Source: Lineus longissimus (taxonomy: Eukaryota > Nemertea > Pilidiophora > Heteronemertea > Lineidae). From it: a DNA stretch of 64,000 nucleotides. The translations under genes and the position numbers were made by a program. Each line of letters starts with the position of its first letter. The first letter of the stretch is position 1. The notes under the pieces are model-generated. The model was not told the DNA's origin. It did no database searches and saw only the letters and a program-made list of their open reading frames with translations. Below are positions 44,517 through 60,803 of this stretch, one piece after another. The stretch is from positions 18,795,292-18,859,291 of the forward strand of contig NC_088312.1 in NCBI RefSeq assembly GCF_910592395.1. The letters run 5' to 3'.

Positions 44517-44588
44517 TTTCATTAAAATAAATGGCCTTTTTACTGTCTTCATTAACCAAAATTCAAGGAAAAGATTCAAGTAAATTAA

Positions 44589-45980
44589 ATGTATTATCCA
44601 ATAGCAAATCAACATAAAAGTAAATTCACCTATGACTTCTTTAATTTAGAAGTAACTGTTAATACTAATAACTTCTTCCGCCTACAAGAAACTAAGATAA
44701 CACCTGGGTTTTTGAGCCTGAAAAATAAGAAAGACTGTCTGCGACTGGAAAAGAATCCATTATCGTTTTACCAGAACCAATTTAACATGGCTGTTTGGTT
44801 TGCTACAACAGGTTGTGGTATTTCAATAGACGATCACTTGAATCACAGTGACCCATTGTTAAGGTCAATTTACAGGTTTCATGTTTACTATCAAATATTG
44901 AAGATCATGAAGAATCTAGAGATACCAATTCCAGGTGAAAATGATTTTAATGAGACAAACAATAACATTAACCGTAGGAAACTAGGAGGGTTATTGAGTG
45001 AATTTGGTTTAAAAGACGAGTACGATTTCTCGGTGTTTGAAAATAACGGTGGTTGGAGGTCATGGAATGTACCGGATTACAACCCGAACATAACTGATCC
45101 CGGATATTACATCAATGATTCTAAAATCAATTTCTTCCTCATGCAAGTTCATGAAAATAGAATGCCACCGATGTTCAGTAAAGACTGGGATGCTGGAATG
45201 GCTAATTTCAAATATCCAGATATTTTCATCAAGGATCATGTCAGGAGACACAAGAATGTATTTGATGTAATTACACAAAATGAATGTCAAACCTATCAAC
45301 AATTCATGATATTTAAATCAAATGGTTTCTCTAATCCTGGAATAGAGAGGTTAAATGATACAATAAGAACATATGTTTACTGTATTCTGGGTGCTCAGGC
45401 GTTGACCAGAACACCAATAATTGGAGTACCGGGTACAGAATTGGATGCACAGAAGGAATTTAACAAACTATTAAAGGATTCGATTAATCAACATCCTGAT
45501 ATTCCCACTTCAATTCAAAGATATCAAAAAGCAGTGAGTGACACTCATACAAGACTAGATTATGTAATATCACCAGGATTGTATGTCATACGATCAAATA
45601 TGGTACTCGTTATTGGTAAGCTGGATAACTACAATAATAACATTTTAATAGCGCCAAAAAATGCTAAACCCGGTAAGAATGACATTAACCACAAAAAGAC
45701 CTTACCACCACCACTGATGGAAGGAAATAGTTCTAAGAAAATAAGAGGTAAGAGTAGCGTTGGTACATCAATGACGGACAAAGTCCCGAGAGCAAAGCTC
45801 GAGACCAGTCATAAACCAAAGAGTAATGTTGATACACCAAAAACAACTGAAACCTCAAAGAATATTCCTATTACTACTAAACTTGACACCAAAGTTGAGA
45901 AGGAGGATGATACTCATGAAACAATTAAATTCATGCTTTACTCAGTTGTTGGTACATTGATTGTTTTTATGGTTAGATAA
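44589..45980 (+). CDS. Polinton protein with C-terminal membrane anchor (463 aa)
   Basis: Function is unknown. It is the first gene after the left repeat and starts at ATTAAATG. The N-terminal half contains a conserved-looking block, MAVWFATTGCGISIDDHLN followed by LLRSIYRFHVYYQ, and the middle has GWRSWNVPDYNPN. I recall similar sequences in other Polintons, but this was not checked. Residues from about 350 are low-complexity, rich in Lys, Thr and Pro. The last 20 residues form one hydrophobic helix ending VFMVR, suggesting a tail-anchored protein. A hairpin element lies in the linker (45776-45800). I do not see a protease triad. Confidence 0.85.
   Translation: MYYPIANQHKSKFTYDFFNLEVTVNTNNFFRLQETKITPGFLSLKNKKDCLRLEKNPLSFYQNQFNMAVWFATTGCGISIDDHLNHSDPLLRSIYRFHVYYQILKIMKNLEIPIPGENDFNETNNNINRRKLGGLLSEFGLKDEYDFSVFENNGGWRSWNVPDYNPNITDPGYYINDSKINFFLMQVHENRMPPMFSKDWDAGMANFKYPDIFIKDHVRRHKNVFDVITQNECQTYQQFMIFKSNGFSNPGIERLNDTIRTYVYCILGAQALTRTPIIGVPGTELDAQKEFNKLLKDSINQHPDIPTSIQRYQKAVSDTHTRLDYVISPGLYVIRSNMVLVIGKLDNYNNNILIAPKNAKPGKNDINHKKTLPPPLMEGNSSKKIRGKSSVGTSMTDKVPRAKLETSHKPKSNVDTPKTTETSKNIPITTKLDTKVEKEDDTHETIKFMLYSVVGTLIVFMVR
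45776..45800 (+). repeat. Double-hairpin element, copy 1
   Basis: GGAC-aaa-GTCC, spacer CGA, GAGC-aaa-GCTC; both stems are perfect. It is in frame inside the 463-aa protein (peptide DKVPRAKLE). Confidence 0.85.
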
Positions 45981-45990
45981 ATAAGTAATT

Positions 45991-47604
45991 ATGGCTGAAG
46001 GAGGTGAAAATTATGAAATGGATGATTACGATTCACAATCATCATCATCATCATCAGGAACTTTTGAACAAATTCTAGAAATGAGAAAGGATGATTTAAT
46101 TAATCAATATATTCACGCAAGATACAACACAGGTGAAATCAATAGAACTTTTCAAGATGACGGCACAACATACAACACAGGAGGTGAATATATCCAAATG
46201 GATGAGATAGATCCTAATACAGGTGAAATCAATAGAACTTTTCAAGATGACGGCACAACATACAACACAGGAGGTGGAAATCTTACTACTGAAACTTCAT
46301 TCAGTACACCAGAAAGAGTAAGAGGTATTGTCCCTGAATTGATGGAAAAGGAGTTAAGTTACGATACAATAGAGGATAAACTTGATAAAGCATTGGGAGT
46401 ATCAATCTGGAATTATGACAAGAAAAAATTGAGTAATCTTTCACCACACATTAGTTACAATGGAAACAAACTTTATTACAATCCGAGAAATTCTGAATTT
46501 GATTTGATAAAAGATAAACGAGGAAACAAAAATTTATTTGAATATTCTGATAAAAATGGAGAAAAGATAAAGTTAATTCCTTTAACTAAGGATAATGGAA
46601 GCTTCTATGCTGAAGGCACATTAAAGACTAAGTTTGGTACTAGATTTGTTGACATGATTAGAGGTATGATTGCACCTGACCCACCAGTAAGTCAACCTAC
46701 ATTAGTAACCCCTGAAACACAGGCAGTAATTAATGAGGTAAACAGTTCAAACCAACCAATAGATAAATTAATTGATTCTAATGATGATGAACTTAAAACA
46801 CTGGGTTTTACTGAATCTGCCTTGAGAGAACTTAGAGGGTTAAAACAGGCTGGTGATGATCTAGCTGCAGTAAAGAGGGATAAGGACATGCAAATAGAAA
46901 GCCTAGAAGAAGAACTTAATAATTTAACAAGAGACTATGTAAAGTATGTAGAAGAAGGTTCTAAAGATACGGGGGAGTTGAAAAAGCAAATAGATGAACT
47001 AAATGACAAATTGTATGAGGAACAGTCAAAGGTATGGAGGTTAGACAATGACAGGGAGTCACAAACTAGAAGAATTAAACGTTTAATTGTTGATGTTCTA
47101 AAGAAACCAGATTCAACTATTCCTCTGAAGGACAGAATAAAGTTACTTTTTAAGACATATGGTGTAACTATTAGCGCCATAATAACAGCTGTTGTAATGA
47201 CATTTACAACTCTAGGTCTTAGTATCAGTAGTGCTTTAAGTGGTGCCACTAAATCTGTAAAACCAACTCCAGGACCAGGACCATCTCCAGGACCAGACCC
47301 AACTCCAGGACCTACACCAGAACCAGGACCAAAACCATCAATACCAGATAAAGTAAAAGAAGGTCTCAAGAAGTTTGCTGAATGGCTAAAAGAACTAGCC
47401 AAGAAATCAGCTGCGGCTTTACCGGGAATCATCGGTTCTATCGTATCATTTCTCCTGAAAACAATTGGTGCAGTTGTTGGCTTTCTAGCCGAACATCTGA
47501 TCATAGCAGTTATTGCTATTGTTAGTTCCATAATTTATGGTTTAATTGGGGGTGTTAAAGCCTTAAAATCACGTAAAACAGTAAAATCACGTAAAAGGTC
47601 TTAG
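45991..47604 (+). CDS. Polinton coiled-coil membrane protein (537 aa)
   Basis: The order of parts is an acidic Ser-rich start, a directly repeated block (GEINRTFQDDGTTYNTGG twice, near residues 47-64 and 77-94), a globular middle, and a coiled coil at about 285-370. A hydrophobic segment follows near 390-412, then a Pro-Gly linker (about 425-450), amphipathic helices (FAEWLKELAKKSAAALPGII) and a second long hydrophobic region ending in a basic tail. This plan suggests a virion membrane or internal protein that inserts into bilayers. No named family is certain. The gene follows the previous one by 10 bases in the same direction, probably transcribed with it. Confidence 0.85.
   Translation: MAEGGENYEMDDYDSQSSSSSSGTFEQILEMRKDDLINQYIHARYNTGEINRTFQDDGTTYNTGGEYIQMDEIDPNTGEINRTFQDDGTTYNTGGGNLTTETSFSTPERVRGIVPELMEKELSYDTIEDKLDKALGVSIWNYDKKKLSNLSPHISYNGNKLYYNPRNSEFDLIKDKRGNKNLFEYSDKNGEKIKLIPLTKDNGSFYAEGTLKTKFGTRFVDMIRGMIAPDPPVSQPTLVTPETQAVINEVNSSNQPIDKLIDSNDDELKTLGFTESALRELRGLKQAGDDLAAVKRDKDMQIESLEEELNNLTRDYVKYVEEGSKDTGELKKQIDELNDKLYEEQSKVWRLDNDRESQTRRIKRLIVDVLKKPDSTIPLKDRIKLLFKTYGVTISAIITAVVMTFTTLGLSISSALSGATKSVKPTPGPGPSPGPDPTPGPTPEPGPKPSIPDKVKEGLKKFAEWLKELAKKSAAALPGIIGSIVSFLLKTIGAVVGFLAEHLIIAVIAIVSSIIYGLIGGVKALKSRKTVKSRKRS
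46129..46276 (+). repeat. 90-bp-period direct duplication inside a Polinton gene
   Basis: Two copies starting ACAGGTGAAATCAATAGAAC (46129 and 46219) are identical over about 58 bp, implying a recent in-frame duplication of 30 codons. Confidence 0.9.
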
Positions 47605-47651
47605 GTGACCTTCTATCAAAACAATGTTTAAAAAATAATTATTATGTAAAT

Positions 47652-48824
47652 ATGAATAAATACATCTCATTAAAAGACTATTATTCTAGTGAGTCGGACT
47701 TCGTCCTGAGAGCAGAGCTCGAGTGGAACAATGAGAATCTTAAAGGATACATTCGTCCTAGGGTCATGGATAGAAATTTTAGTGAAGAAAATGTCAGCAA
47801 GAATTATGACAGTGGGAAATTTGATAAGCCTACTGAGACACACAAAGTAGTCCTGCCAAGAATGAAAGAATATGACGTCAGTACCAACACTAATGCTCAA
47901 TTCTGCCGTAATTGTAAAAGGTGGACACTTTTTGAGTATCAAAAAAACTTGAATTCAGCAAGGTACGCAGCTAAAACTGTGAAGTATCAATTCTGCACCA
48001 ATTGCAATTCGACTACTTACGATGATGATTTTAAAACTCTTGAGATCAATATTGACAACAAGACACGTTACTTTGACAGTATTCTAAGGAAACTTGGATG
48101 GAGTCGGCTGTCCGAATCGGCAGTTAAGTATTTAAAGGACTTTGTGGAAGGGTATTTACAGTGCTACTTTTCAATTCACAGAAAATGTCTTAGTAAGCAG
48201 AGATATGAAAGTACTCTTCAGTCAGCCCTAAAAATGGGTATTAACACTCTCCCCTCTAAGTTATGTAACAAAGGGTTACATGGTGAAGCCATGCTTTTTA
48301 AATTTCACTGTGGGGAATATGATTGGTTTCTTGCCATTGAATTTATTAACAGGGCAATTGGTAAACCGCAATTAACCGATGAGAATATCACTGACCTTAG
48401 ACTAGTGTACTATGCTTTCCTTAGATTTCTGCATTACTGTGGTGTCAAGGTCACCATTAACTACAAGGTATTTTTACACCAAGCCTTTAAAACGCTGAAA
48501 ATTGATTATGTAATATTTACACCTTTTTTAACCAACAAGGAGCGAGTAAATGATTTGGAGAGATTATGGTATGATTTCACTCAAAGTATTTTCTTCCAGA
48601 ATTACAAGGTTGAGAAGGAATATGACCAGGATATTGACAAGCAGTTTGACGTTTTACTGAGTGCCAGTGCAGGTCGAGACATTAACTGCATCAGTAATAT
48701 TAAGTTTACACCAGCCGGACTTCGTCCTGAGAGCATAGCTCGAGCCGGACTTCGTCCTGAGAGCATAGCTCGAGCCGGACTTCGTCCTGAGAGCACAGCT
48801 CGATCTAGTGTTAAGATGCAATAA
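47652..48824 (+). CDS. Zinc-ribbon protein with histone-fold-like stretch (390 aa)
   Basis: A zinc ribbon is formed by C85, C88, C115 and C118 (FCRNCKRW and FCTNCNS). Residues about 140-196 (for example LRKLGWSRLSESAVKYLKDF) have the spacing of a histone fold: helix, RLS-type loop, long helix with acidic-aliphatic pattern, K/R loop, short helix. The resemblance is by eye only. The remaining 190 residues are helical with no motif I know. A DNA-binding or transcription role is plausible. Double-hairpin elements add residues at the N terminus (SDFVLRAELE) and a triple GLRPESIAR-type repeat at the C terminus, where loss of function would be least likely. Confidence 0.8.
   Translation: MNKYISLKDYYSSESDFVLRAELEWNNENLKGYIRPRVMDRNFSEENVSKNYDSGKFDKPTETHKVVLPRMKEYDVSTNTNAQFCRNCKRWTLFEYQKNLNSARYAAKTVKYQFCTNCNSTTYDDDFKTLEINIDNKTRYFDSILRKLGWSRLSESAVKYLKDFVEGYLQCYFSIHRKCLSKQRYESTLQSALKMGINTLPSKLCNKGLHGEAMLFKFHCGEYDWFLAIEFINRAIGKPQLTDENITDLRLVYYAFLRFLHYCGVKVTINYKVFLHQAFKTLKIDYVIFTPFLTNKERVNDLERLWYDFTQSIFFQNYKVEKEYDQDIDKQFDVLLSASAGRDINCISNIKFTPAGLRPESIARAGLRPESIARAGLRPESTARSSVKMQ
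47696..47720 (+). repeat. Double-hairpin element, copy 2
   Basis: GGAC-ttc-GTCC, spacer TGA, GAGC-aga-GCTC, in frame near the N terminus of the zinc-ribbon protein, read as DFVLRAELE. Confidence 0.9.
48717..48801 (+). repeat. Double-hairpin element, three tandem copies
   Basis: Units at 48717, 48747 and 48777 with a 30-bp period: GGAC-ttc-GTCC, TGA, GAGC-nnn-GCTC with loops ata, ata and aca. They are translated as three ten-residue repeats (AGLRPESIAR) at the end of the zinc-ribbon protein. Confidence 0.95.
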
Positions 48825-48875
48825 AGTTGTGAAAACAGCATTTTGCACTTAACAGTCATTTTTCCATAATTTTAA

Positions 48876-49697
48876 ATGAATAATCAGCAAATGAATAGTC
48901 AGACATCTGCAGTGATTGAACAACAGATGAAACAGATTGGTGTTATGAGTCCTGAGAGCTTAGCTCGAGTTGGGGCTTCTAACCAACAGAACACTGGTAG
49001 TTACCAACAAAACAGAACTAACTTTCAACAGAACTGCTCTACAAATCAACAAGTTTCAAACAAGCAGTTGAATAGTTCAAATTTTGTTAATCCTAGTCAA
49101 GGAATAGTTAATCCCAGTCAAGGAATAGTCAATTCTAGTTGCCAACTAGGCTCAACTAGCAATCAACAAAATTTGAACTATTTGACTGATAGTGGCCTTA
49201 AAGCCAAACAAGACTTAGAGATTCTAGTTGCAACTGGTAAAAGCAAGGATTTCCTTAATAAACAAATAACTTTTAATGACTTAGATAATATGACTGAAAA
49301 AGAAATCTTAAAACATCATAGAATGTATGAAACAAAGATGGCTGCCAGACTTAATGATTCTTTGGGTAAGACAGTAATTAAAGCTTACACTAAATTATCA
49401 AGGTGGTTATTACCAATAGATGATGAAGATAATCTTTATCATGATCTTAGAAATGATTATTTGATAACTAACGAGTTGGATAAATGGCTTGGATGGTTGA
49501 GTTTGAGAATGGGTGCACTAACTGCACTTGCTTCAACAACACTTATTACTTTAGGTCATTGTCATGAGGAATCATCTATGACTGCATCGAGTATGACTGC
49601 ATCAAATATGAATACACCAAATATGACTGTCTCTGAATTTGATAAAACCATACATGAAAGTACAGATATCACAGGTAGTGATGATAAAGAAGACTAA
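48876..49697 (+). CDS. Gln/Asn-rich Polinton membrane protein (273 aa)
   Basis: The first 100 residues are dominated by Gln, Asn and Ser, with NPSQGIV repeated. A helical domain follows (DLDNMTEKEILKHHRMYETK, then LGKTVIKAYTKLSRWLLP). One hydrophobic segment (MGALTALASTTLITLG) comes next, then a Met/Thr/Ser-rich tail with SMTAS-like repeats. It starts at TTTAAATG. A partial hairpin element gives the peptide MSPESLARV near residue 24-32. I recall relatives in other Polintons; the function is unknown. Confidence 0.8.
   Translation: MNNQQMNSQTSAVIEQQMKQIGVMSPESLARVGASNQQNTGSYQQNRTNFQQNCSTNQQVSNKQLNSSNFVNPSQGIVNPSQGIVNSSCQLGSTSNQQNLNYLTDSGLKAKQDLEILVATGKSKDFLNKQITFNDLDNMTEKEILKHHRMYETKMAARLNDSLGKTVIKAYTKLSRWLLPIDDEDNLYHDLRNDYLITNELDKWLGWLSLRMGALTALASTTLITLGHCHEESSMTASSMTASNMNTPNMTVSEFDKTIHESTDITGSDDKED
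48948..48966 (+). repeat. Double-hairpin element, partial copy
   Basis: GTCC, TGA and an intact GAGC-tta-GCTC hairpin remain; the left arm of hairpin 1 is missing. It lies in frame in the Gln/Asn-rich protein. Confidence 0.75.
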
Positions 49698-49699
49698 AT

Positions 49700-49724
49700 T
49701 AACCTGGTTATGAGAACATAGTTC
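49700..49724 (+). repeat. Double-hairpin element with both stems changed
   Basis: TAAC-ctg-GTTA, spacer TGA, GAAC-ata-GTTC. Both stems differ from the common GGAC and GAGC versions, and both are still fully paired. It sits between the 273-aa and 168-aa genes. Confidence 0.85.
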
Positions 49725-49745
49725 GAATTAATTTGAGCAAGATAA

Positions 49746-50252
49746 ATGGAACTTGAAACTGTAACTGATACTACTAAAGTTTCAGTGTCTAAGAAACCTA
49801 GATCAGAGAAACAATTAGCATGGTCTAGAGAACTGGGTAGAAGATCTAAGGAATTTAAGAGGATAAAAAAGGATAAGACGACATTTAAAGTACAGGACTC
49901 CTCACCAAACAACAGAGTTGTGGAAAAGGAGGAAGAAGAATTAGAGGAAGAAGAACCACAATCTCAAAATACTGATGTATCACTGCGTGAATCTAGTAGT
50001 AATACTTGTGTCTATGTACTAGGTTTAGGTGCCGTTATTTTAGCAGCATTCATTATGTTTAAGAAACTTCCTAAAAAAGTAAGTAAAGGGCAGCGATCAG
50101 GCTTGAATCGAGCTATGCTCTCAGGACAAAGTCCTAATCGAACTTTGTTCTCTGGACAAAGTCCGAATGAAGCAGTCATGAAGGGATCAATTAACCCTCT
50201 TGTTAAACCTGTAGTTAAAGAGAAGAAATGTACTATTCCTTTAATGGAATGA
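49746..50252 (+). CDS. Small single-span Polinton membrane protein (168 aa)
   Basis: A basic N-terminal region (KQLAWSRELGRRSKEFKRIK) is followed by an acidic run (EKEEEELEEEE) and one transmembrane helix at about 95-112 (VYVLGLGAVILAAFIMF). The basic tail has been expanded by two hairpin elements, read as AMLSGQSPNRTLFSGQSPN. The last 20 bases overlap the end of the opposite-strand 332-aa gene. Likely a virion or host-membrane component. Confidence 0.8.
   Translation: MELETVTDTTKVSVSKKPRSEKQLAWSRELGRRSKEFKRIKKDKTTFKVQDSSPNNRVVEKEEEELEEEEPQSQNTDVSLRESSSNTCVYVLGLGAVILAAFIMFKKLPKKVSKGQRSGLNRAMLSGQSPNRTLFSGQSPNEAVMKGSINPLVKPVVKEKKCTIPLME
50110..50164 (-). repeat. Double-hairpin elements, two tandem copies, minus orientation
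   Basis: The unit at 50110 is GAGC-tat-GCTC, TCA, GGAC-aaa-GTCC. The unit at 50140 is GAAC-ttt-GTTC, TCT, GGAC-aaa-GTCC. The period is 30 bp, and the second copy has the compensated GAAC/GTTC stem. Confidence 0.95.
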
Positions 50253-51231
50253 TCTCATCAGGTGGTCGAGCAGAGCTCTCAGGACGAAGTCCGTCTAGGA
50301 CAAAGGCCAGAGAGCAAAGCTCGATTCTTAACTCTAAAGAAACCTCTGTTCCTCTGAAATTAACTAGCTTACCATTCTTATCAGTGATTTCGAATTTTAT
50401 GTGATTAGTACACTTATTTATCGTTTTCTTACAATTCGGTTCGTATCGCTGCATTTTTATTTGGTCACCATCTTCTACAGGTATGATGCAGAAAATGTTA
50501 GATGGTTTATTGTTGTAGAGGGTCTTAGCTTTGTCAACCAAATTAGCTTGCAGGAATAGATATTTCCTGTAAAAGTTGAGTGGTCTTGTGGAGTAGTATT
50601 TTCCTTTCTTGGTAAATTTAGTTTGCTTAAAGCCAAACCACTCATTCACCACTGTGAGCTGTTTTTCTATCACCTCTCTTATGGTTTTGCTTATTTGAAA
50701 ACCTTCTGTGTTTCTCTCAATCTTGATTTTTTCATTTTTATCTAACTTGTCTACTTTCAGAGGGTACTCTTTATCCTCTGTAAGTTCAAGGGTTATGTAA
50801 TTATTGTTATCACAGTAAATTTTCACATGGCTTATTCCAATTTCTTTTATGTATTTTTGCCATACCTCACAAAACTCACTTAAACTAAAATGTCGAGAGT
50901 ATGGAAATGTGTATTGAGTAATGGTGTCTTTAGTTGTGGTAGAATCATTTTCCAAATGCCGTTCGCAAATTTTCATGACTTCCTTTTCAAGTCCAGGAGC
51001 AAATAATGTCCTACACCATAATTGTTTATCTAAGGGCTCATGTGTTGTAATTCTGGTTATTTCGACTAGAAATGAGAAAATCCTGACTCCCTCTGGTAGA
51101 AAATCACCTGTCCACCATGAATTGTAAAAGGTTATCGATTTCAAAGTAATGGATTTTATGTCTAATTGGTCTGTTAAGTAGTACTCAAATTTGGCTTCAT
51201 TACATTCTTGTTCATTGATTATGAAGTCCAT
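50233..51231 (-). CDS. Penton-like second minor capsid candidate (332 aa)
   Basis: The C-terminal segment FEITDKNGKLVNFRGTEVSL has the same layout as the end of the penton protein encoded at 59630-60397 (IRLTDEKGEIIDLNGHNVQY). Its start (SITLKSITFYNSWWT) likewise resembles the penton's SITLTFAVIPCTFYN. This suggests a paralogous vertex or fibre-type structural protein, but it is inference. Two hairpin elements in opposite orientation sit in its last 30 codons. It diverges from the polymerase gene with only 56 bases between the starts. Confidence 0.8.
   Translation of the reverse strand: MDFIINEQECNEAKFEYYLTDQLDIKSITLKSITFYNSWWTGDFLPEGVRIFSFLVEITRITTHEPLDKQLWCRTLFAPGLEKEVMKICERHLENDSTTTKDTITQYTFPYSRHFSLSEFCEVWQKYIKEIGISHVKIYCDNNNYITLELTEDKEYPLKVDKLDKNEKIKIERNTEGFQISKTIREVIEKQLTVVNEWFGFKQTKFTKKGKYYSTRPLNFYRKYLFLQANLVDKAKTLYNNKPSNIFCIIPVEDGDQIKMQRYEPNCKKTINKCTNHIKFEITDKNGKLVNFRGTEVSLELRIELCSLAFVLDGLRPESSARPPDEIIPLKE
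50268..50322. repeat. Double-hairpin elements, inverted pair
   Basis: 50268-50292 is in minus orientation (GAGC-aga-GCTC, TCA, GGAC-gaa-GTCC). 50298-50322 is in plus orientation (GGAC-aaa-GGCC with one mismatch, AGA, GAGC-aaa-GCTC). A 5-base spacer separates them. Confidence 0.9.
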
Positions 51232-51287
51232 TTCTATTTAATTCAAGATATTTATTGAATTTAATAAATTTTAATCTAATAAATAGA
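51232..51287. promoter_or_regulatory. Divergent start region between polymerase and penton-like gene
   Basis: Only 56 AT-rich bases separate the two start codons. Both directions show TAAATAGA just before ATG (TTAAATAGAAATGG on the minus strand, AATAAATAGAATG on the plus strand), suggesting a shared early-type promoter. Confidence 0.5.
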
Positions 51288-54200
51288 ATGACTGATAAGA
51301 ATCAGAAAATACTTTGCACTACATGTGACAAGTACATATCCTACAATAATATGGCTATTCACAGGAGAACCAAAGGTCACTTAAGTAAATTAAATCCGGA
51401 TTATGTCCCTATTGCTCAACCCCGAGCCCAATCACTGATCCCTAAAACTATGGATAAGAAACTTGCATTTGAGGAAAATGAGCTAGATGGCATAAAGAAA
51501 GTGAGTGGAATAGAAATAGTAAAACAATTTGGCAAGCCTGTAGTCACCATTAGTTTGAAGATTGACAGAGAAGCTAAACAAGTGTATGAATACAGAGATA
51601 AATTAGAGGAGGTATTATTTCAACTCAATGATTACCATCACAAAATTAGCATATCAGTATTTGCTCAGTTTGATCGTCAGGGTGAAAGTGTAACACACCC
51701 CATACAGTCTCCAATGGAAAGCATAATTTCAAGGAACCAGGCAATTTATGCCATAACCAACCAGTTAAACTACATTAAGACACAGATTGAGGAAAGGTAC
51801 TTTCAAGGTTCTGGACTTACTTTAAATAAAATAGAGTCTTGTAACATGACCATCTGTTCTTACAAGAGGTGTAAAGGTGGTCATTACACTAAATTACCAT
51901 TTAAAACAAAAGCAGTAATAAATGTGGAATCAAATGACAATAAATGTTTTCTCTGGTCTTTATTGGCCGCTAAATATCTGAAAGAAAATCCAGAGACGGA
52001 CTTTGTCCTGAGAGCAGAGCTCGAGAGTACATTCAATATCACTACCGATATGCTAGAAATGACTTCGTCACGAGAACAGAGTTCGAAAACTACTGATATC
52101 AAAATCAAATCATTTCCTGTATGTATTCAAAAGGATATCCCTAAGATAGAGAGTGATAATAATCTCAAAATTAATGTGTTCAAGTTAGAGAACGAATCGG
52201 CTAAGAGCACCTGTGAGGCAAAACTAGAACCTCTCTACCTGTCCAAGAATTATGATGATGATGATGTCATCGATCTGTTGTATTTCAAGGACCATTTCAT
52301 GTACATAAGAGACATCAATCTTTTCTTCAGGACACTAGCTCATAGAGTGTATCTTTGCAGGAGATGCATGAATTACTTTTACAGGAAGTCAACACTAGAT
52401 AAACATAAAAAGAAATGTGGAGAACACGATTACTGTAAGATTACTTTGCCTCCACCTAACAGTAAATGGTCACAAATTAAATTTGAAAAACACTCATTCA
52501 AAAATAGAGTTCCGTTTGTGATCTATGCTGATTTCGAAGCGATAAGCGAACCTTGTTCTTCTGCCGAAGGCAACATACCAGTAGTATCAGTAGAGCCACA
52601 TATGATGAAAGAACCGAGTTCAAAGAAACTTTTTAAACAAAATGCATCAGCTGTTGGTGTTTATGTTCACTCAGACTACACACACCTTTACAGTAGCCAG
52701 TATGTGTCTCACAGGGGTGCTGATGTTGTAGATGTGTTCTGTAATTGGTTAATCAGGATGGAAGAACAATTCTCTAATTTATTGAACTGTAACTTTCCTC
52801 TAACAATGACAGATGAAGACTGGCATAAATATCAATTAGAAACACATTGTTACTATTGTAATCAACCTTTGGGATATGACAAGGTCAAGGATCATGATCA
52901 CTACTGTGGTAGATATCGAGGTGCTGCTCACAACTCGTGTAATTTGAATGAAAAGAAAGCTATGTTTGTTCCAGTGTTTTTTCACAATCTCAGTAATTAC
53001 GATTCTCACTTATTTATTAAAGAATTAATGAATAAGCTACCGAAGTACAAGAAACTGAAAATACTTGCCAAAACATCAGAGGAATACATCTCATTTCAGT
53101 TCGGTTGTTTCAGGTTTTTGGACTCGTACAGATTCCTGCAGTCCAGTTTAGACAACATAACCAAATCAATGTTGGATGATGATTTTAAAATTACCAGACA
53201 GCTGTTCCCAAATACCACTGACTTTAAGCTATTGAGGAAGAAGGGTTCAGTACCTTACTCTTTTTACACATCACATGAAAGCTACAATGTTACTTACCTA
53301 GAAAAGTCTATGTTTTTTGACGAATTGAAAAATGAAATGGCACCTGATTCTGCCTATGATGAGGCTAAGGTAATATGGGATCATTTCAAGATCAGGAATC
53401 ACGGTGAGTTCATTGACCTCTACCTCAAAACTGATGTGATCCTTTTAGCTGATTTATTTGAGAAATTCAGGGATGTCAATTTGAACTACTTTCAGATAGA
53501 TCCCTGTCACTGTTACTCGGCACCAGGCCTAACCTGGCAAGCTGGTTTGAAGTACACAGGAATAAACCTAGAACTACTGACTGATACCAACATTTTACTT
53601 ACTTTTGAGAAAGCAATACGAGGTGGAATTTCGGGTGTTATGGGAACAAGACATGTCAAGGCAGATGAACACCACAAACTACTCTACGTAGACGCAAATA
53701 ATCTCTACGGCTGGTCCATGATGGAACCTCAACCCTATGGTAGTTTTGAAATGATAGATATTGATCCACTCGAGCTATGCTCTCAGGACAAAGCTCGACT
53801 AGGACTACGTCCAGAGAACAAAGTTCGACTTAACATGAATGTTATCAGTAAAGAGCAGATTATGGCAATTCCAAGTGATAGTGAAGTAGGCTACTTCTTA
53901 GAGGTTGATTTGGAGTATCCAGGAAATATTAAATTTAAGTCAAGGAACTTTCCATTCTGTCCCGAATCTCTCTTTATTGAAGATGATGAATTAAGTCCTT
54001 ACCAGAGAGAGTTACTGGGCGATGATAAAAGATCAAATGTAGAGAAACTAATACTAACACAAAAGGATAAAACTAATTACATAGTGCATTACAGAATGCT
54101 ACAATTTTACCTAAAGCACGGAATGGTACTTAAGAGGGTTCATTCAGTGATAAGCTTTAAACAATCAAAGTGGTTAGCACCATACATTGATTTTAACACT

Positions 54201-55079
54201 AAAAGACGTATGGATTCTAAGACTGATTTTGAGAAAGATTACTTTAAATTAATGAACAATGCGTTCTATGGAAAAACTTGTGAGAATGTAAGGAACAGGG
54301 TTGAAATTGAATTTGTATCGGACGGGGAGAGAGCCAGGAATGTAATGGCCAATCCCAGGTTTTCATCGATATGCGTATTTGACGAACATAATGCTGCTAT
54401 TAGCATGAGGAAAACATCAATGAAATTCAACAAACCAATCTACATAGGAGCTTCAGTACTTGAATTGTCTAAATTATTAATGTATGAATTCTATTATGAA
54501 GTTCTTCAACCGTACTTTGGTGAGAAAAATATTGAACTGCTGTATCTAGATACAGATTCCTTTGTACTTAACATTAATACTGATGACTTAACTAAAGACT
54601 TAAAGGAGTTGAAACACTATTTTGACTTCAGTAATTATCCAAAAGATCATCCACTCTATGATACCAGTAAGAAGAAGGTACCAGGCTACTTTAAGGATGA
54701 GCTAGGAGGAGTAGAGATGACTGAATTCATTGCCCTGAGAAGTAAGATGTACGCTTACAGGACCAAGACTATGTCTGGAGAGCAAGGCTCGACAAAAGAT
54801 TACGATTCTAAGAAATTGAAGGGTATTGCCAAGAATGTAGTAAGGAGAAATATCTCATTTGATGACTATGTTGATTGTCTTGAAAAGAGTAGGTCATTTT
54901 ACCACAAGATGAGACACTTAAGATCAGATAAACACCAAATCTATTTGGAAGAAGTTGACAAAAAAAGCCTCAGTCCTTTTGATGACAAGAGGTTCATACT
55001 TGAAGATGGAATAAGCACCTTACCATTTGGAATGTATTATGAAGGCTACATAGATTACAGCGATTCAAACTTCGCTTGA
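51288..55079 (+). CDS. POLB: Protein-primed family B DNA polymerase (Polinton POLB)
   Basis: It replicates the element from a protein primer and should act with the terminal repeats. Length is 1263 aa from the ATG at 51288; the open frame extends upstream only to a TTG. An N-terminal C2H2-like finger (C10, C13, H25, H31) and a second near residue 355 precede the exonuclease motifs YADFEAI (about 413), HNLSNYDSH (about 566) and LYLKTDVILLADLF (about 711). A zinc/HNH-like insert, DHDHYCGRYRGAAHNSCN, lies at about 535. Polymerase motifs are DANNLYGWSM (about 802), MNNAFYGKTCENVRN (about 988) and YLDTDSF (about 1086). All catalytic acidic residues are present. Five hairpin elements or fragments are carried in frame, one inside the polymerase domain between motifs A and B. 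Confidence 0.97.
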   Translation: MTDKNQKILCTTCDKYISYNNMAIHRRTKGHLSKLNPDYVPIAQPRAQSLIPKTMDKKLAFEENELDGIKKVSGIEIVKQFGKPVVTISLKIDREAKQVYEYRDKLEEVLFQLNDYHHKISISVFAQFDRQGESVTHPIQSPMESIISRNQAIYAITNQLNYIKTQIEERYFQGSGLTLNKIESCNMTICSYKRCKGGHYTKLPFKTKAVINVESNDNKCFLWSLLAAKYLKENPETDFVLRAELESTFNITTDMLEMTSSREQSSKTTDIKIKSFPVCIQKDIPKIESDNNLKINVFKLENESAKSTCEAKLEPLYLSKNYDDDDVIDLLYFKDHFMYIRDINLFFRTLAHRVYLCRRCMNYFYRKSTLDKHKKKCGEHDYCKITLPPPNSKWSQIKFEKHSFKNRVPFVIYADFEAISEPCSSAEGNIPVVSVEPHMMKEPSSKKLFKQNASAVGVYVHSDYTHLYSSQYVSHRGADVVDVFCNWLIRMEEQFSNLLNCNFPLTMTDEDWHKYQLETHCYYCNQPLGYDKVKDHDHYCGRYRGAAHNSCNLNEKKAMFVPVFFHNLSNYDSHLFIKELMNKLPKYKKLKILAKTSEEYISFQFGCFRFLDSYRFLQSSLDNITKSMLDDDFKITRQLFPNTTDFKLLRKKGSVPYSFYTSHESYNVTYLEKSMFFDELKNEMAPDSAYDEAKVIWDHFKIRNHGEFIDLYLKTDVILLADLFEKFRDVNLNYFQIDPCHCYSAPGLTWQAGLKYTGINLELLTDTNILLTFEKAIRGGISGVMGTRHVKADEHHKLLYVDANNLYGWSMMEPQPYGSFEMIDIDPLELCSQDKARLGLRPENKVRLNMNVISKEQIMAIPSDSEVGYFLEVDLEYPGNIKFKSRNFPFCPESLFIEDDELSPYQRELLGDDKRSNVEKLILTQKDKTNYIVHYRMLQFYLKHGMVLKRVHSVISFKQSKWLAPYIDFNTKRRMDSKTDFEKDYFKLMNNAFYGKTCENVRNRVEIEFVSDGERARNVMANPRFSSICVFDEHNAAISMRKTSMKFNKPIYIGASVLELSKLLMYEFYYEVLQPYFGEKNIELLYLDTDSFVLNINTDDLTKDLKELKHYFDFSNYPKDHPLYDTSKKKVPGYFKDELGGVEMTEFIALRSKMYAYRTKTMSGEQGSTKDYDSKKLKGIAKNVVRRNISFDDYVDCLEKSRSFYHKMRHLRSDKHQIYLEEVDKKSLSPFDDKRFILEDGISTLPFGMYYEGYIDYSDSNFA
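51998..52022 (+). repeat. Double-hairpin element in POLB
   Basis: GGAC-ttt-GTCC, TGA, GAGC-aga-GCTC, read in frame as DFVLRAELE, the same peptide as in the zinc-ribbon gene. Confidence 0.9.
52060..52084 (+). repeat. Double-hairpin element in POLB, both stems compensated
   Basis: TGAC-ttc-GTCA, CGA, GAAC-aga-GTTC. Relative to the common unit each stem has a paired change. Read as MTSSREQSS. Confidence 0.9.
53772..53826. repeat. Double-hairpin inverted pair in POLB, one chimeric
   Basis: 53772-53796 is in minus orientation: GAGC-tat-GCTC, TCA, then GGAC-aaa followed by GCTC instead of GTCC, as if the second arm came from another hairpin. 53802-53826 is GGAC-tac-GTCC, AGA, GAAC-aaa-GTTC. The insertion lies about 25 residues after polymerase motif A. 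Confidence 0.85.
54780..54790 (+). repeat. Single hairpin fragment in POLB
   Basis: GAGC-aag-GCTC preceded by TCTGGA, in frame as MSGEQGS. Probably a decayed double-hairpin copy. Confidence 0.55.
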
Positions 55080-55082
55080 GTA

Positions 55083-55107
55083 CGACTACGTCCAGAGAAC
55101 AAAGTTC
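55083..55107 (+). repeat. Double-hairpin element just after the POLB stop
   Basis: CGAC-tac-GTCC (one unpaired end), AGA, GAAC-aaa-GTTC, starting four bases after the stop codon. Confidence 0.85.
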
Positions 55108-55215
55108 GATTAAACTAATGAATAGGGTGGTGCTGATGGTAGTGTTACTTGGTGAAATTCATCCCTAACACCGAAGTCATGATAATAGTGATAGTGATAC
55201 ACCACATTAGGATTA

Positions 55216-55256
55216 GGACGTAGTCCGGGTCCGACTTCGTCTTGAGAGCATAGCTC
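55216..55256 (+). repeat. Single hairpin plus double-hairpin element
   Basis: GGAC-gta-GTCC at 55216-55226, followed by CGAC-ttc-GTCT, TGA, GAGC-ata-GCTC at 55232-55256. Confidence 0.85.
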
Positions 55257-55270
55257 GAGTCCTGTTTGAT

Positions 55271-55930
55271 TTACTGAACTTTTAGTTTTTCTAGCATCTC
55301 TGTCTGTGCTAGTTTTTTTCCTTCTTCTAAAAAAGTCTTCTTTAAAGACTCTACATCAACAGCTGAACTTGCCTCCCTTTGTTTTTTCCTAATGGCATTT
55401 TTCATCGAAATGTATTTCTCCTTCTCCTTGAGAATCAAAGTAAACTCATCTGTAGATATGTGAGAATCGGTTAAGGCTTTACTAACCAAATCATTGATTG
55501 TGTTCAGTTTTGAAATTGCCAACATTCTGATATTCTCATGTTTTTCAATTTTCTTAAGAATATTCTTTTTCTCCCAGCCTAAGGCTGATGAAATAATGGC
55601 ACTACCTATTGTTACGCCACCCAAAGCTAAGCCTATCGGTGCCGTGATGACACCAGCTAGAGCGAAAACACCAACAGATCCGGCTGCTACGCTAGTTAAA
55701 TTAAGGAAGTGGCTAATGCCAGTAATTACGCTAAATGCTTTTTTGTACTTTGAAAATATCTTTCTTCTAAATTCAATCTCGCTTTCTAAGAAACTCTTAA
55801 CCTCACATATTTGTTGTAGTCTGAAAGCCTGAGGGTTACTTTCTGTATGCTTTTCAGACCTTTCATAGTTCAAATGACTTTCAGAGTTTAAATTACTTAA
55901 ATCTGGATAAACCTTATTGTCTCCATCCAT
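55271..55930 (-). CDS. Polinton membrane protein with two hydrophobic helices (219 aa)
   Basis: A hydrophobic core at about 70-115 (GISHFLNLTSVAAGSVGVFA, then ITAPIGLALGGVTIGSAIIS) is flanked by charged helices. The second half contains SKLNTINDLVSKALTDSHIS, which I recall in other Polinton proteins; this was not checked. The arrangement suits a membrane-remodelling or pore-like role, which is inference. It starts at ATTAAATGG and follows the 89-aa gene by four bases, so the two are probably expressed together. Confidence 0.82.
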   Translation of the reverse strand: MDGDNKVYPDLSNLNSESHLNYERSEKHTESNPQAFRLQQICEVKSFLESEIEFRRKIFSKYKKAFSVITGISHFLNLTSVAAGSVGVFALAGVITAPIGLALGGVTIGSAIISSALGWEKKNILKKIEKHENIRMLAISKLNTINDLVSKALTDSHISTDEFTLILKEKEKYISMKNAIRKKQREASSAVDVESLKKTFLEEGKKLAQTEMLEKLKVQ

Positions 55931-55934
55931 TTAA

Positions 55935-56204
55935 TTAGTGGGAATAACTAGAATCAGTTGTTCTGTCATTTCTAGTGTTTAGTGTTGATCCTACAGACAC
56001 TACAGGTTTTTGAAGTACATTAAATTTTAAAGGTTTTTCTGACGCAACAGGTTTTTCTGTCCCAGCAGGCCCAGCAGGTTTTAAAGGTTTTTCGGGACCA
56101 GGCTCCAACTTTGACTCTACTTCTGCCTCTAATTCTCTATGAAATCGTTCTAATCTTTCTTTCCAATTACGTGGTCGTTTTGTGTAACCCCAAGTTCTAT
56201 TCAT
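55935..56204 (-). CDS. Small Pro/Lys-rich Polinton protein (89 aa)
   Basis: A basic-aromatic start (NRTWGYTKRPRNWKERLERF) is followed by a PxKPLKPAG-type low-complexity tail. It starts at ATTAAATG and ends only four bases before the next start on the same strand. It could be a small basic DNA-binding or core protein; there is no recognisable family. Confidence 0.65.
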   Translation of the reverse strand: MNRTWGYTKRPRNWKERLERFHRELEAEVESKLEPGPEKPLKPAGPAGTEKPVASEKPLKFNVLQKPVVSVGSTLNTRNDRTTDSSYSH

Positions 56205-56223
56205 TTAATTAAGTAAAATAAAA

Positions 56224-57240
56224 TCAATTCACTGCAAAGAGTAAATTTCTTTCAAGTCTATTATTCAACTTAATCATCTCGTTTATGATTTCTGTCTGAC
56301 TACATATGTTAATGTTCTGGTTCATTCTCATGTTATTATTTAAATTCGATAATCTATCAAGCAGAATCATATTTTCATCACGAAGATAATCCCCGAAATG
56401 CTGTGATATCACTATTTTCCAATTTGGTATTACATCCTGGTCTCGAAAGACAAACCAGTTTTCACTTCTCATTTTTACCATGAAATCCATTGACCTATCC
56501 AATTGATCCTTAAATAGTGTGTAGTCTACTTTAGCACTCTTCTGTCTGTTTTGTGTTTTAGACATTGGTCTCATGTTAAACCAAGCAAAGCACAGTTCAG
56601 GTTTATCTTTGAATTCCTTGATTGGTAAGACATGATCCAACTCTTCTTCTACTATTCGAACTCTGTTCTCGGGACTTTGTCCTATTGGAGATAGACTCCT
56701 CTGGTACTTTAACCACTGTGAGAAGAAACTGTCTGTACATCCTAGATTGAATGATGAATTACCGGTCGAGCTTTGCTCTCTGGACTTTGTCCTAGTCGGA
56801 CTTCGTCCTGAGAGCAGAGCTCGATTACACTCTCCCTTAGAAATGCGGTTTAGACCAACTCTAATTTTGTGTCTGTCTCTATTACCATTTTGGTCAAGGT
56901 AATCCTTTTTGTAATATGAATTAAAACATGATCTACAGTTACCTCTATTTCCGTCTTTACCAAATTCACCATCACTTAGTAATTTATTTTCATAACATTT
57001 ATTACATCCCTTGATTTTACTTGAACCACATTCTTTACAGTAATCAAGTAGTTTATTACGCCTGTTCTTTTCAAAATTAATTTCAGGTTTCTTTTCACAG
57101 CACTTAACACAATAAATTGTAGGTCCTGAAATTACTGGTTGTTGCTGATACATAGGTTGCTGCTGAAACATAGGTTGCTGCTGATACATAGGTTGTTGCT
57201 GATACACATTGACAGTAGCATTAAATATTGCTCCATCCAT
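56224..57240 (-). CDS. Zinc-finger HNH endonuclease (338 aa)
   Basis: It opens with a five-residue repeat (QQPMY, residues 14-34). Four CxxC pairs follow (C44/C47, C68/C71, C79/C82, C102/C105), making two zinc-binding modules of the kind found in phage recombination nucleases. An HNH-like core follows: LDHVLPIKEF (D202, H203) and CFAWFNMRPMSKTQNRQK (N222, N231). Hairpin elements expand the region between fingers and nuclease (about residues 139-195). Likely cleaves DNA during replication, packaging or resolution. The classification is by motif. Confidence 0.8.
   Translation of the reverse strand: MDGAIFNATVNVYQQQPMYQQQPMFQQQPMYQQQPVISGPTIYCVKCCEKKPEINFEKNRRNKLLDYCKECGSSKIKGCNKCYENKLLSDGEFGKDGNRGNCRSCFNSYYKKDYLDQNGNRDRHKIRVGLNRISKGECNRALLSGRSPTRTKSREQSSTGNSSFNLGCTDSFFSQWLKYQRSLSPIGQSPENRVRIVEEELDHVLPIKEFKDKPELCFAWFNMRPMSKTQNRQKSAKVDYTLFKDQLDRSMDFMVKMRSENWFVFRDQDVIPNWKIVISQHFGDYLRDENMILLDRLSNLNNNMRMNQNINICSQTEIINEMIKLNNRLERNLLFAVN
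56658..56682 (-). repeat. Double-hairpin element in the HNH gene
   Basis: On the plus strand GAAC-tct-GTTC, TCG, GGAC-ttt-GTCC; stems perfect. Read on the minus strand as GQSPENRVR. Confidence 0.9.
56768..56822. repeat. Double-hairpin inverted pair in the HNH gene
   Basis: 56768-56792 is GAGC-ttt-GCTC, TCT, GGAC-ttt-GTCC (minus orientation). After the 5-base spacer TAGTC, 56798-56822 is GGAC-ttc-GTCC, TGA, GAGC-aga-GCTC (plus). All four stems are perfect. Confidence 0.95.
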
Positions 57241-57327
57241 TTCTTTCTTTATTTAGTAGGACATTTTTTTTTAAATTACGTTTTTCGAACTTGTTCTTGT
57301 GACTTAAGTCACTTTAGAGACTTTATT

Positions 57328-58479
57328 TCATTTCAATGATTTGATATCAGAAACTGGTAACCATTCATTGAACTTATCACTGTAACCCTTCCACTTCACT
57401 AATCCGTATTTCTTGCCTTTACTGGTCTTGTACCTTAGGATTTTCTCGATCTTGTACTCTAGCTGGTCAGGATTAGGAACATAGCTCAATTCCTCTTCAT
57501 AGAAATATCCTTGAATTTCTTCTTTGTGGTAATCCTCAAGCTGGTAGACGATAGGGTGAGTAAATATGATCTGTTTGATTTGGAACACCTCCTCAGTGTA
57601 GTTGGGCATGTAACCTTTACCGAAAATGGACTTGTACTTTGAAATTCTTACACTGTCACCTACTTTGTACTTTGGATCACCAAATGTCTCTTTGAGGTGA
57701 AGACCGTAAAGATTGTACCACACTGTTCCTTCGTTTTCCATCTTTCTGGCGTCTACAGGTTTCATACCTATTGATGAGTGAAATGTGTTATTGTAGCTGC
57801 TGACCAGGTCATCCAGAACGTCAATCCACTTGTCAGTCTCCTTAGCGGTGAAATAACGCCACATTTTTTCTTTAAGGGTTCTATTGAATCTCTCTACTAC
57901 TGCTGCCTTCTTATCAGATTTTGTGGAGAACCATTCTATGTCATTTTCTGTTAAGAGTTCCTTGAAGTGTTTGTTGTAAAATTCTTTACCGTCATCAAAC
58001 TGGATTTTCGTTGGTTTTGCTTCCTCAAATATCACTTTAAATGCATCTCTGATTTCTTCTCTCCTCTTACTCTTAACTGCTAGAGCCCAAGAAAAACGAC
58101 TAAATAGATCTATGACTGTTAAAATGAATCTGAAACCCTTATTCTGTTTCTCAAATTTTTGCATGTCAACCAGATCTGCTTGCCATTGTTGATCGATGTA
58201 CGATACCATTGTCTTCCTGAAGGTGAATTTCTTAATGGCCGGTTTGTGTAGTTGGTGAGTTGGTAGTGTTTCTAGAAATTCTTTCACTTCTTTTTTTTTA
58301 ATAAGTTTTCCTGAGCGGGAATTTGTCCCTAACAACGAAGTTGTGCTCTGCTCTCGTGACGAAGTCATATCTTCCTTGACCTGTTTCCAGATTTTACTCA
58401 AAGAACTGTAAGCCACGGGACTCTCGGGGTTGTAGTACAAATCCCTTAGATACTGCTGTTTGTCATCCTTTACATTCAT
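57328..58479 (-). CDS. INT: Retroviral-type integrase with chromodomain (Polinton INT)
   Basis: It inserts the linear element into the host chromosome, making the 6-bp duplication. 383 aa. The rve catalytic core carries D102 (WQADLVDM), D162 (QFDDGKEF) and E196 (VVERFNRTLKEKM). An SH3-like stretch follows (YKVGDSVRISKYKSIFGKGY), and a chromodomain occupies about residues 340-383 (LVKWKGYSDKFNEWLP), which may steer insertion to histone-marked chromatin. The catalytic residues are intact. Hairpin-derived sequence (MTSSREQSTTSLLGTNSRSG) lies before the core. Its start codon is four bases from that of the ATPase on the other strand. Confidence 0.97.
   Translation of the reverse strand: MNVKDDKQQYLRDLYYNPESPVAYSSLSKIWKQVKEDMTSSREQSTTSLLGTNSRSGKLIKKKEVKEFLETLPTHQLHKPAIKKFTFRKTMVSYIDQQWQADLVDMQKFEKQNKGFRFILTVIDLFSRFSWALAVKSKRREEIRDAFKVIFEEAKPTKIQFDDGKEFYNKHFKELLTENDIEWFSTKSDKKAAVVERFNRTLKEKMWRYFTAKETDKWIDVLDDLVSSYNNTFHSSIGMKPVDARKMENEGTVWYNLYGLHLKETFGDPKYKVGDSVRISKYKSIFGKGYMPNYTEEVFQIKQIIFTHPIVYQLEDYHKEEIQGYFYEEELSYVPNPDQLEYKIEKILRYKTSKGKKYGLVKWKGYSDKFNEWLPVSDIKSLK
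58311..58367 (-). repeat. Double-hairpin element plus extra hairpins in INT
   Basis: On the coding strand TGAC-ttc-GTCA, CGA, GAGC-aga-GCAC (one mismatch), then a compensated five-pair hairpin ACAAC-ttc-GTTGT and a remnant GGGA...TCCC. It is in frame in the N-terminal region. Confidence 0.8.
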
Positions 58480-58486
58480 TTAAATG
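58477..58486. promoter_or_regulatory. Palindromic shared start site CATTTAAATG
   Basis: The minus-strand ATG of the integrase (58479) and the plus-strand ATG of the ATPase (58484) are the two halves of one ten-base palindrome. With only TTAA between them, any promoter upstream of either gene must lie inside the other gene. Confidence 0.8.
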
Positions 58487-59104
58487 AGTGAAGGATTTAT
58501 TTACGAGCCACACAATATGTTAATTTCTGGTGTTACCAATTGTGGTAAGACATATTTTGCCCTTGACCTCTTAGAAAAGGAGTATCGGCACAAGTTCCAG
58601 AACATAGTAATTTTCTGTCCAACATATTTCAACAATAAGACATATGAAAGGAAATGGATTTACCAAGACAAGAACGTCTACATAGTTAATCCCGAAGCTG
58701 TGGCCAGTAATTTGGACCTTGTGCTTCAGTTTGCTACTCTGACCTTTGCTGGTTCTAACACATTATTCCTCATTGATGATTGTGCTAATTTGAGAGACAC
58801 CAAAAAGAAGGTGTCCGAGTTATGTAATCTTGCCTTTTCCGGCAGGCACTACAATCTCACTGTTTGGTTACTAGTTCAGAAGTACAATTCAGTTGTTAAG
58901 GACTACAGAGAGAACATAAGAATTTTAGTATTATTTTTTAATAAGGATGAATCAGCCATGAAAGATGCCTTAGAAGAAAACAGTGTTATTCCTAAGGAGA
59001 AAAGACAGTACTACATAGAAGAACTTAAGATAAAAAAAGGATCAAAACTGATCATTAGACTACAACATCCATTTGGATTTACTCTTTCACATCAAAAATC
59101 TTAG
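58484..59104 (+). CDS. ATP: FtsK/HerA-type genome-packaging ATPase (Polinton ATP)
   Basis: It pumps the element's DNA into capsids, as the packaging ATPases of adenovirus-like and PRD1-like lineages do. 206 aa, the usual length. Walker A is GVTNCGKT (residues 16-23). Walker B is TLFLIDDCA with D98 and D99. A sensor-type Gln follows in WLLVQKYNS (about 132). It is convergent with the 152-aa gene; the 44-base gap holds part of a hairpin element. Confidence 0.95.
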   Translation: MSEGFIYEPHNMLISGVTNCGKTYFALDLLEKEYRHKFQNIVIFCPTYFNNKTYERKWIYQDKNVYIVNPEAVASNLDLVLQFATLTFAGSNTLFLIDDCANLRDTKKKVSELCNLAFSGRHYNLTVWLLVQKYNSVVKDYRENIRILVLFFNKDESAMKDALEENSVIPKEKRQYYIEELKIKKGSKLIIRLQHPFGFTLSHQKS

Positions 59105-59118
59105 TACCGCTTCTCATC

Positions 59119-59162
59119 GAGCTATGCTCTCAGGACTGTGTCCGATCATCAGGACTGTGTCC
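59119..59162 (-). repeat. Double-hairpin element and extra hairpin after the ATPase
   Basis: 59119-59143: GAGC-tat-GCTC, TCA, GGAC-tgt-GTCC. A further hairpin GGAC-tgt-GTCC at 59152-59162 repeats the last arm. It lies across the stop of the 152-aa gene. Confidence 0.88.
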
Positions 59163-59607: not shown

Positions 59608-59629
59608 TTAATTCCAATGAATTTTAATT

Positions 59630-60793: not shown

Positions 60794-60803
60794 TTGCAGC
60801 ACC

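Follow-up and report, generated by a model that had tools for sequence, protein, structure and literature searches.

Several families of tiny hairpin sequences are known that multiply within genomes. The nearest in behaviour to the sequences reported here are the GC clusters of yeast mitochondria (GC42 and relatives), which the available sections of PMC4478555 present as short, palindromic and proliferating, with AG or ACT direct-repeat flanks, presence or absence between strains, merger into larger units and altered bases beside insertions. The double-hairpin elements of Allomyces and the hairpin-forming elements of sponges are small mitochondrial hairpins in dispersed, variable families; the former have two adjacent hairpins, going by their name, and are reported in the cited part of PMC2800124 to lack flanking duplications. 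How such tiny mitochondrial elements move is described as undetermined in the same portions of both papers (PMC4478555, PMC2800124). The Rickettsia palindromic elements, which are bacterial, ~150 bp long and encode a conserved peptide, insert in frame into unrelated genes (PMC10969869, as excerpted). Miniature inverted-repeat transposable elements are non-autonomous, duplicate their targets and carry terminal inverted repeats in common with an autonomous transposon. They are far larger than the unit that concerns us. In this work we describe a double-hairpin unit repeated through a Polinton, a virus-like element, in 64,000 nucleotides of the nemertean Lineus longissimus (NC_088312.1, positions 18,795,292 to 18,859,291; C5:18795292-18859291 in our contig numbering). 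This stretch is the window, and bare coordinates refer to it. The unit is very probably a non-autonomous mobile element of ~28 bp, built of two hairpins with 4-bp stems.

The unit behaves like the yeast GC clusters and the fungal double-hairpin elements and, by location, is a member of neither. Its flanks are likewise rich in AGT and ACT and it has empty sites, as far as the GC clusters are characterized in the sections cited above; those are mitochondrial and GC-rich, with 42 nt in GC42, whereas the Polinton unit is nuclear and 28 bp long. It resembles the Allomyces and sponge elements as a dispersed and variable family of small hairpins, yet sits on chromosomal Polintons and, unlike the Allomyces elements as reported in the cited part, has a target duplication. 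Like the Rickettsia elements of the excerpt, it is found in frame within unrelated genes, but it adds only 30 bp and is read in several frames and on both strands. With the miniature inverted-repeat elements it shares its non-autonomous nature and the target duplication; by sequence, its ends are not inverted repeats of each other. The initial annotation of this DNA had likened the units to double-hairpin and Rickettsia palindromic elements, which holds for their appearance and places of insertion and fails for membership. It knew of no earlier description, and we found none in the literature on Polintons with hairpins, palindromes or nemertea or on double-hairpin elements (titles and beginnings of abstracts of the papers listed; few subscription papers or bioRxiv preprints covered).

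The unit reads M-GGAC-nnn-GTCC-n-GA-GAGC-nnn-GCTC-GA, where M is mostly C or A, and in canonical orientation the window units are 27-mers near the consensus GGACNNNGTCCNGAGAGCNNNGCTCGA. The Polinton holds 22 full and two decayed units, 16 on the plus strand and eight on the minus strand. Each of the 21 units proposed initially could be re-read in the window with its double-hairpin architecture, and to these we add a full unit at 54766 and units with a decayed first hairpin at 48942 and 59634. The proposed length of 25 bp has to be revised to 28 bp, as it left out the trailing GA and the leading base; likewise the starts given for plus-strand units are right, whereas minus-strand units really start 2 bp earlier. 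Partial copies had also been mentioned, and half units with a single hairpin do occur at 59130-59167, 60783-60794 and 55213-55226, one of which forms a 19-bp tandem pair.

The strongest evidence for movement comes from comparisons between Polinton copies, where single units are repeatedly present in one copy and absent from another with clean borders, a gain of 30 bp each. When units with their flanks were aligned to other copies (BLAST), clean gaps of 30 bp appeared; in three or more cases the alignment is otherwise identical, going by its identity value (unit 55232 in copies L061 and L050, unit 55083 in copy L043). When insertions and deletions of 8-200 bp between copies were collected as distinct strings, which are not independent events, 30 bp accounted for 69 of the 192, 60 bp for 39 and 90 bp for 10. 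The third commonest size class, with 31 of the 192 strings between copies L003-L062, was 18 bp. The initial annotation named fixation of every copy as an argument against mobility, and this is not what we see: one 3.2-kb stretch of the DNA polymerase B gene (PolB), compared in 30 copies, carries from 2 to 11 units. One hot site exists in the array states empty, +, -, +-, -+ and -+-, and a second in the states empty, +, +-, +-+ and +-+-. The unit at 54766 is in all 30 copies of the stretch, three of them with one substitution, and one empty copy was found elsewhere. Unit content can differ between very similar copies, as in L041 and L054, which differ at 8 of 2860 non-unit bases, yet have 9 and 3 units, respectively. 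Over the 435 copy pairs the median divergence is 1.1%, with the outlier L052 (27% median divergence) kept in the set.

The borders of these insertions were examined in 163 flank contexts, arrays included. An empty counterpart exists for 91 of them, and its anchors almost always lie 3 nt apart. Merging leaves 29 isolated contexts, a few of which have a flank in common and could represent a single site; 12 can be matched with an empty counterpart, in every case of 3 nt. At nine of the 12, left flank, right flank and empty site have the same most frequent triplet (AGT, ATT, AGA, AGC), and at one site the flanks are AGT while the empty copies read AGT (9), GGT (14) or ACT (3). Among the 22 full units of the window, 41 of 66 flank positions match against 21.4 expected, other duplication lengths being null apart from a weak signal at 2. 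A set of 89 contexts has A at position -4 in 75 cases; at the two duplicated positions the flanks agree in 62 and 76 cases, against permutation means of 29 and 57 and maxima of 45 and 65. The insertion is best read as a 28-bp element that ends in A and makes a 2-bp target duplication at A|NN, so that unit and duplication together gain 30 bp. Targets of the form A|GT are commonest, followed by A|CT and A|TT; among 207 left flanks, AGT occurs 80 times and ACT 36 times. On the 28 + 2 reading, 23 of the 29 isolated contexts have the same dinucleotide in both flanks. An alternative derived from the 22 units, a 27-bp element with a 3-bp duplication directly after CGA, was replaced by this reading; the two are inseparable at sites that begin with A, and 28 + 2 is preferred because left flanks without an A still have an A on the right side.

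Within the window, the units are concentrated in the Polinton. We scanned both strands against the 20 scored positions of the consensus, in 18,072 bp of Polinton and 45,928 bp of host DNA. At a score of at least 16 there are 23 places in the Polinton and none in the host, at 15 again 23 and none, and at 14 the numbers are 24 and one. Dinucleotide shuffles of the Polinton (200 in all) gave a mean of 0.02 places at 15 or better and none at 16. Perfect double hairpins of the 4-3-4 form, whatever their sequence, occur 18 times in the Polinton and once in the host, compared with a shuffle mean of 0.54. We also derived a covariance model from the 22 full units. It finds these at E-values from 6e-12 to 2e-8, which is circular, and in addition the decayed units at 59634 (9e-5) and 48942 (7e-4); its best host match has an E-value of 0.6. 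The absence from 46 kb of host DNA that had been noted by eye is borne out at scores of 15 or better, and neither host DNA nor shuffled sequence comes near the density in the Polinton.

The same pattern extends across the genome. We searched one Lineus longissimus genome of 391,118,348 bases in 30 contigs (the assembly is given as 391 Mb in 32 scaffolds in the portion of PMC8593623 that we cite). With up to two mismatches, the unit pattern has 1822 + 1812 = 3634 places and the reversed control has none. Flanks with the units masked match the window Polinton at 204 of 204 distinct unit places, a partly biased set that was assembled from loci found by the unit pattern, loci found by PolB and chosen stretches. 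A variant with rare loops has 93 places genome-wide, 29 of them within 13 kb of a PolB match; we examined 8 of the 93, spread over six contigs, and all 8 lie in Polintons. Thus all 212 places with examined flanks are Polinton DNA, and we are fairly confident that the units are confined to Polintons. The copies that bear units sit on chromosome-sized contigs. Among the roughly 100 matches listed, all of them exact, those on C1 form about nine clusters, and all of these C1 matches lie at 8.6-14.7 Mb of the 29.4-Mb contig, which suggests a mid-chromosome location of Polintons there. Two local concentrations are a seven-unit tandem array of 30-bp period in one Polinton copy (L080, C1:13017000-13019000) and six rare-loop units within 267 bp (C4:9467076-9467342).

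Beyond this genome we found little. The strict unit pattern has no matches in viral contigs, and a looser one (16 fixed bases and two half-fixed) has a single isolated match there; a scan of prokaryotes also gave one isolated match, in an Acidobacteriota bin. Within the surrounding 8 kb of either match the covariance model detects no further unit (the other match, E 0.24, overlaps the first), so we take both as chance. With PolB as a single query no relative was found in the viral contigs; the PolB alignment as query found two distant ones, L001 and L002, in which the covariance model finds no unit (best E 0.95). Rfam has no match to the unit at its gathering threshold.

The structure of the unit is maintained through paired changes. 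Changes on both sides of a pair occur in 11 of 160 cells against a shuffled mean of 2.5; further pair types number 5, no more than in the shuffles (5.3). One pair was tallied over 75 distinct unit sequences from the genome: 55 have G-C, 19 have A-T and 1 has G-T. Pairing is less strict for the outermost pair of the first hairpin, where unpaired forms such as CT, CC and AC occur. The first loop is mostly TTC, TTT, AAA or TAC and the second mostly ATA, AAA, AGA or TCT. The second loop is TCT in 28 of 207 units and its reverse complement AGA in another 28 of 207, and the first has both TTT and AAA; these reverse complements look as if hairpins flip in place.

Taken as a whole, we think there is a high probability that a mobile double-hairpin element is nested in the Polinton, inserts at A|NN with a 2-bp duplication and would be copied during Polinton replication. 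Several observations count against this. Only 2 of the 435 copy pairs lie within 0.3% of each other, one of them with equal unit numbers, and part of the single-unit absence could be precise loss between short repeats. Two of the 12 isolated sites with empty counterparts have a flank that does not repeat the empty site (left AGT with empty ATT; right AGT with empty GGT), and the wider list of flank contexts has more such cases (ATC, ACC). Among the 29 isolated contexts, 12 have a left triplet that differs from the right one. In 6 of these only the first base is affected, with A on the right and another base on the left (GGT/AGT, GAA/AAA, TGA/AGA etc.); in the other 6 the difference extends into the two bases counted as duplicated. 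The third flank position has no clear excess of matches (41 of 89; permutation mean 35, maximum 47). The hairpins are weak, at -3.4 to -4.1 kcal/mol as DNA, and two of three tested sequences are ordinary relative to shuffles (z about -1.2). The Polinton context covers at most 212 of the 3634 places, many of them at loci that were picked by a Polinton match. Finally, both the enzyme and the intermediate are putative.

Mismatched flanks are less easily reconciled with a staggered cut than with co-conversion or template switching, and template switching is the rival to which we give most weight, while still holding it to be unlikely. Here no transposition enzyme is involved: using a short match anchored on an A, the replicating polymerase jumps across to another unit, copies that unit with its flank and returns, the hairpins merely assisting, and the apparent target duplication is shared microhomology or a donor flank that has been copied along. 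This would explain sites where a donor-like left flank (AGT or ACT) is combined with a right flank identical to the empty site (ATT, ATC, ACC), units of close copies that differ at one site in the loops and in both arms together, and the existence of half units and chimaeric arms (GAGC..GTCC). Template switching should, however, produce varied lengths, and multiples of 30 bp dominate. Moreover, duplications at the minority targets AGA, AGC, ATT and AAT match the recipient (AAT has no empty copy), which would need a donor with the same flank each time.

What do the units do to the genes that host them? As initially noted, they occur in both orientations, within genes and at gene junctions: 20 of the 24 lie in open reading frames (ORFs), 14 sense and 6 antisense, using five of the six frames and both strands, and four lie between genes. 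An insertion of 30 bp amounts to ten codons and is neutral to the frame. In PolB, the peptides encoded by units occupy three stretches that are incomplete in every aligned homologue that covers them (12, 15 and 14 of 15). At 54766, 10 of the 14 homologues show a gap of exactly ten residues, and the remaining 4 lack seven to nine. A regular-expression scan for the unit peptide signature found it in 0 of 120 PolB homologues. When 240 homologues were scanned with a profile, the top score, 20.9, belonged to the Lineus integrase P0133, and the runners-up at 16.4 and 15.6 are about level with the shuffled maximum of 15.5. Homologues of the window integrase vary in length around the unit at 58341, so there is no clean insertion test at that place. 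One sense frame contains a stop codon in 45 of the 75 unit sequences when C precedes and GT follows; four window units are read in that frame, none with the stop, which fits selection for open frames, bearing in mind that the ORFs were picked for openness.

These data bear on a further alternative, that selection has spread the units as cis elements with a function in the Polinton (hairpins at transcript 3' ends like those of giant viruses, packaging signals or replication signals). The conserved structure with paired changes agrees with such a function, as do the four intergenic units, but the location of most units inside ORFs in so many frames and on both strands, the range of unit number in a single 3.2-kb stretch and the lack of unit peptides in the homologues scanned, where the one clear profile score is that of the Lineus integrase, make it highly improbable. 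We rejected a role as transcript-end hairpin or packaging signal. Local tandem slippage with gene conversion, in which an old palindromic repeat grows in place and is shuffled by ordinary recombination without reaching new sites, would suit the seven-unit array and the variable states of the hot sites and is contradicted by isolated units in unrelated unique sequence that have empty counterparts and target duplications, which leaves it with very little credit.

Returning to a mobile element nested in the Polinton, we suggest the following course. Copying and insertion of a unit would take place on the free, virus-like DNA of a replicating Polinton rather than from the chromosome; we propose this stage since units are missing from the window's host DNA. 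A displaced single strand or a cruciform would fold into the two hairpins, a branch-cutting nuclease would make a staggered cut, and the folded strand would be ligated in and then copied. New units may land beside old ones, as A|NN remains on both sides after an insertion, and this would explain the 30-bp arrays and the head-to-head pairs. A 28-bp element cannot encode an enzyme, and we would guess first at the replication and recombination machinery of the Polinton itself as the mover, although we would put no more on machinery encoded by the Polinton than on some other source. Candidates for the nuclease are an endonuclease VII-like protein of the Polinton or a like domain in PolB. Phage endonuclease VII cuts branched DNA, which makes the endonuclease VII-like protein a natural candidate for cutting the hairpins; we regard this particular step as doubtful. 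The fuller picture, of a 28-bp parasite that consists of two hairpins only and is copied to A|NN on Polinton DNA alone, during Polinton replication and by branch-cutting and synthesis enzymes of the Polinton, seems to us evenly balanced between right and wrong.

The system is a nuclear, animal and recently active one. It offers copies by the thousand, empty sites matched to occupied ones, target duplications, and genes for candidate enzymes beside the insertions. The question of how tiny hairpin elements move therefore becomes testable. For a piece of animal DNA with the look of a mobile element, the unit is unusually small. It also shows a virus-like element parasitized from within, on a scale of ten codons, and provides proteins with in-frame inserts. 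If our account is true, the insertion size of 30 bp keeps the unit tolerable within genes, the unit is a nuclear, DNA-virus counterpart of the mitochondrial GC clusters, and one common mechanism, hairpin-directed copying in replicating DNA, may serve both.

The individual units of the window are as follows. On the plus strand, 45776..45802 lies in ORF1 and is a complete match to the consensus (20/20, 8/8 pairs), and 47696..47722 lies in ORF3 at a site that is empty (AGT) in other copies. ORF3 also hosts a plus-strand tandem array with a 30-bp period, 48717..48743, 48747..48773 and 48777..48803. The unit at 48942..48968 (plus, ORF4), whose first hairpin has decayed, retains 17/20 consensus positions, and the TAAC/GTTA variant at 49700..49726 (plus, between ORF4 and ORF5) has 14/20 with 8/8 pairs. 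ORF5 has two minus-strand units, 50108..50134 and 50138..50164, and ORF6 a head-to-head pair, 50266..50292 on the minus and 50298..50324 on the plus strand. PolB contains five: 51998..52024 (plus), empty as AGA in other copies; 52060..52086 (plus); 53770..53796 (minus), with one chimaeric arm, 6/8 pairs and an empty site AGT on the canonical strand elsewhere, paired with 53802..53828 (plus), which is missing in several copies; and the nearly fixed 54766..54792 (plus), a ten-residue insert relative to most homologues. Downstream, two intergenic plus-strand units follow, 55083..55109 at a hot site with variable arrays and 55232..55258, empty (GGT) in many copies. The endonuclease VII-like ORF holds 56656..56682 (minus), with AAT on each flank, and the pair 56766..56792 (minus) and 56798..56824 (plus). 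The integrase gene has 58341..58367 (minus) near its N-terminus, in a stretch whose length varies among homologues. The last two are 59117..59143 (minus, intergenic), followed by a 19-bp partial duplication, and 59634..59660 (plus), which has a decayed first hairpin and 16/20 consensus positions and forms the C-terminus of a minus-strand ORF, 59633-60397.

The host Polinton (44318..62389, no strand assigned) is apparently intact. It has terminal inverted repeats of 199 bp, 99% complementary, and a 6-bp target duplication, TATTAT, at each end. It encodes PolB, a retroviral-type integrase with a chromodomain, an A32-like packaging ATPase and a capsid protein, the last by a weak match below the cut-off (PF16903, E 0.002); its assignment to the Polintons thus has all of these genes, long terminal inverted repeats and the 6-bp duplication behind it, with the capsid match weak. 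PolB, of the organellar and viral type, spans 51225..55076 on the plus strand (PF03175, E 2.9e-19) and has a weak endonuclease VII match under its cut-off (PF02945, E 6e-4). The endonuclease VII-like gene, our inferred candidate helper, is at 56227..57252 on the minus strand (phrog_1035 endonuclease VII, E 2.2e-7); its protein has no Pfam match at E 0.1 and chance-level matches only up to E 10, and a PDB search to E 10 gave no match. The integrase with chromodomain is encoded at 57331..58479 on the minus strand (PF00665, E 4e-12; PF00385, E 1e-7), and the Lineus record P0133 is 76% identical to it over 92%.

Some minor features of this Polinton are also worth recording. Each terminal inverted repeat contains an imperfect terminal palindrome (44313-44452 and 62260-62389) with arms of 57-62 nt that are 75-76% complementary and separated by a 16-nt gap; judged by sequence, the extreme ends of the Polinton could fold as long hairpins by means of these palindromes. 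In ORF2, at 46126-46281, a 66-bp stretch recurs 90 bp further on with 95% identity, and the start of the endonuclease VII-like ORF, at 57137-57206, carries an 18-bp tandem repeat that is coding. Lastly, a partial integrase (P0121) that is filed under Bartonella sp. CL29QHWL, a name for which the literature searched gave nothing, is 94% identical to the window integrase, and this record is probably animal DNA that contaminates the bacterial assembly.

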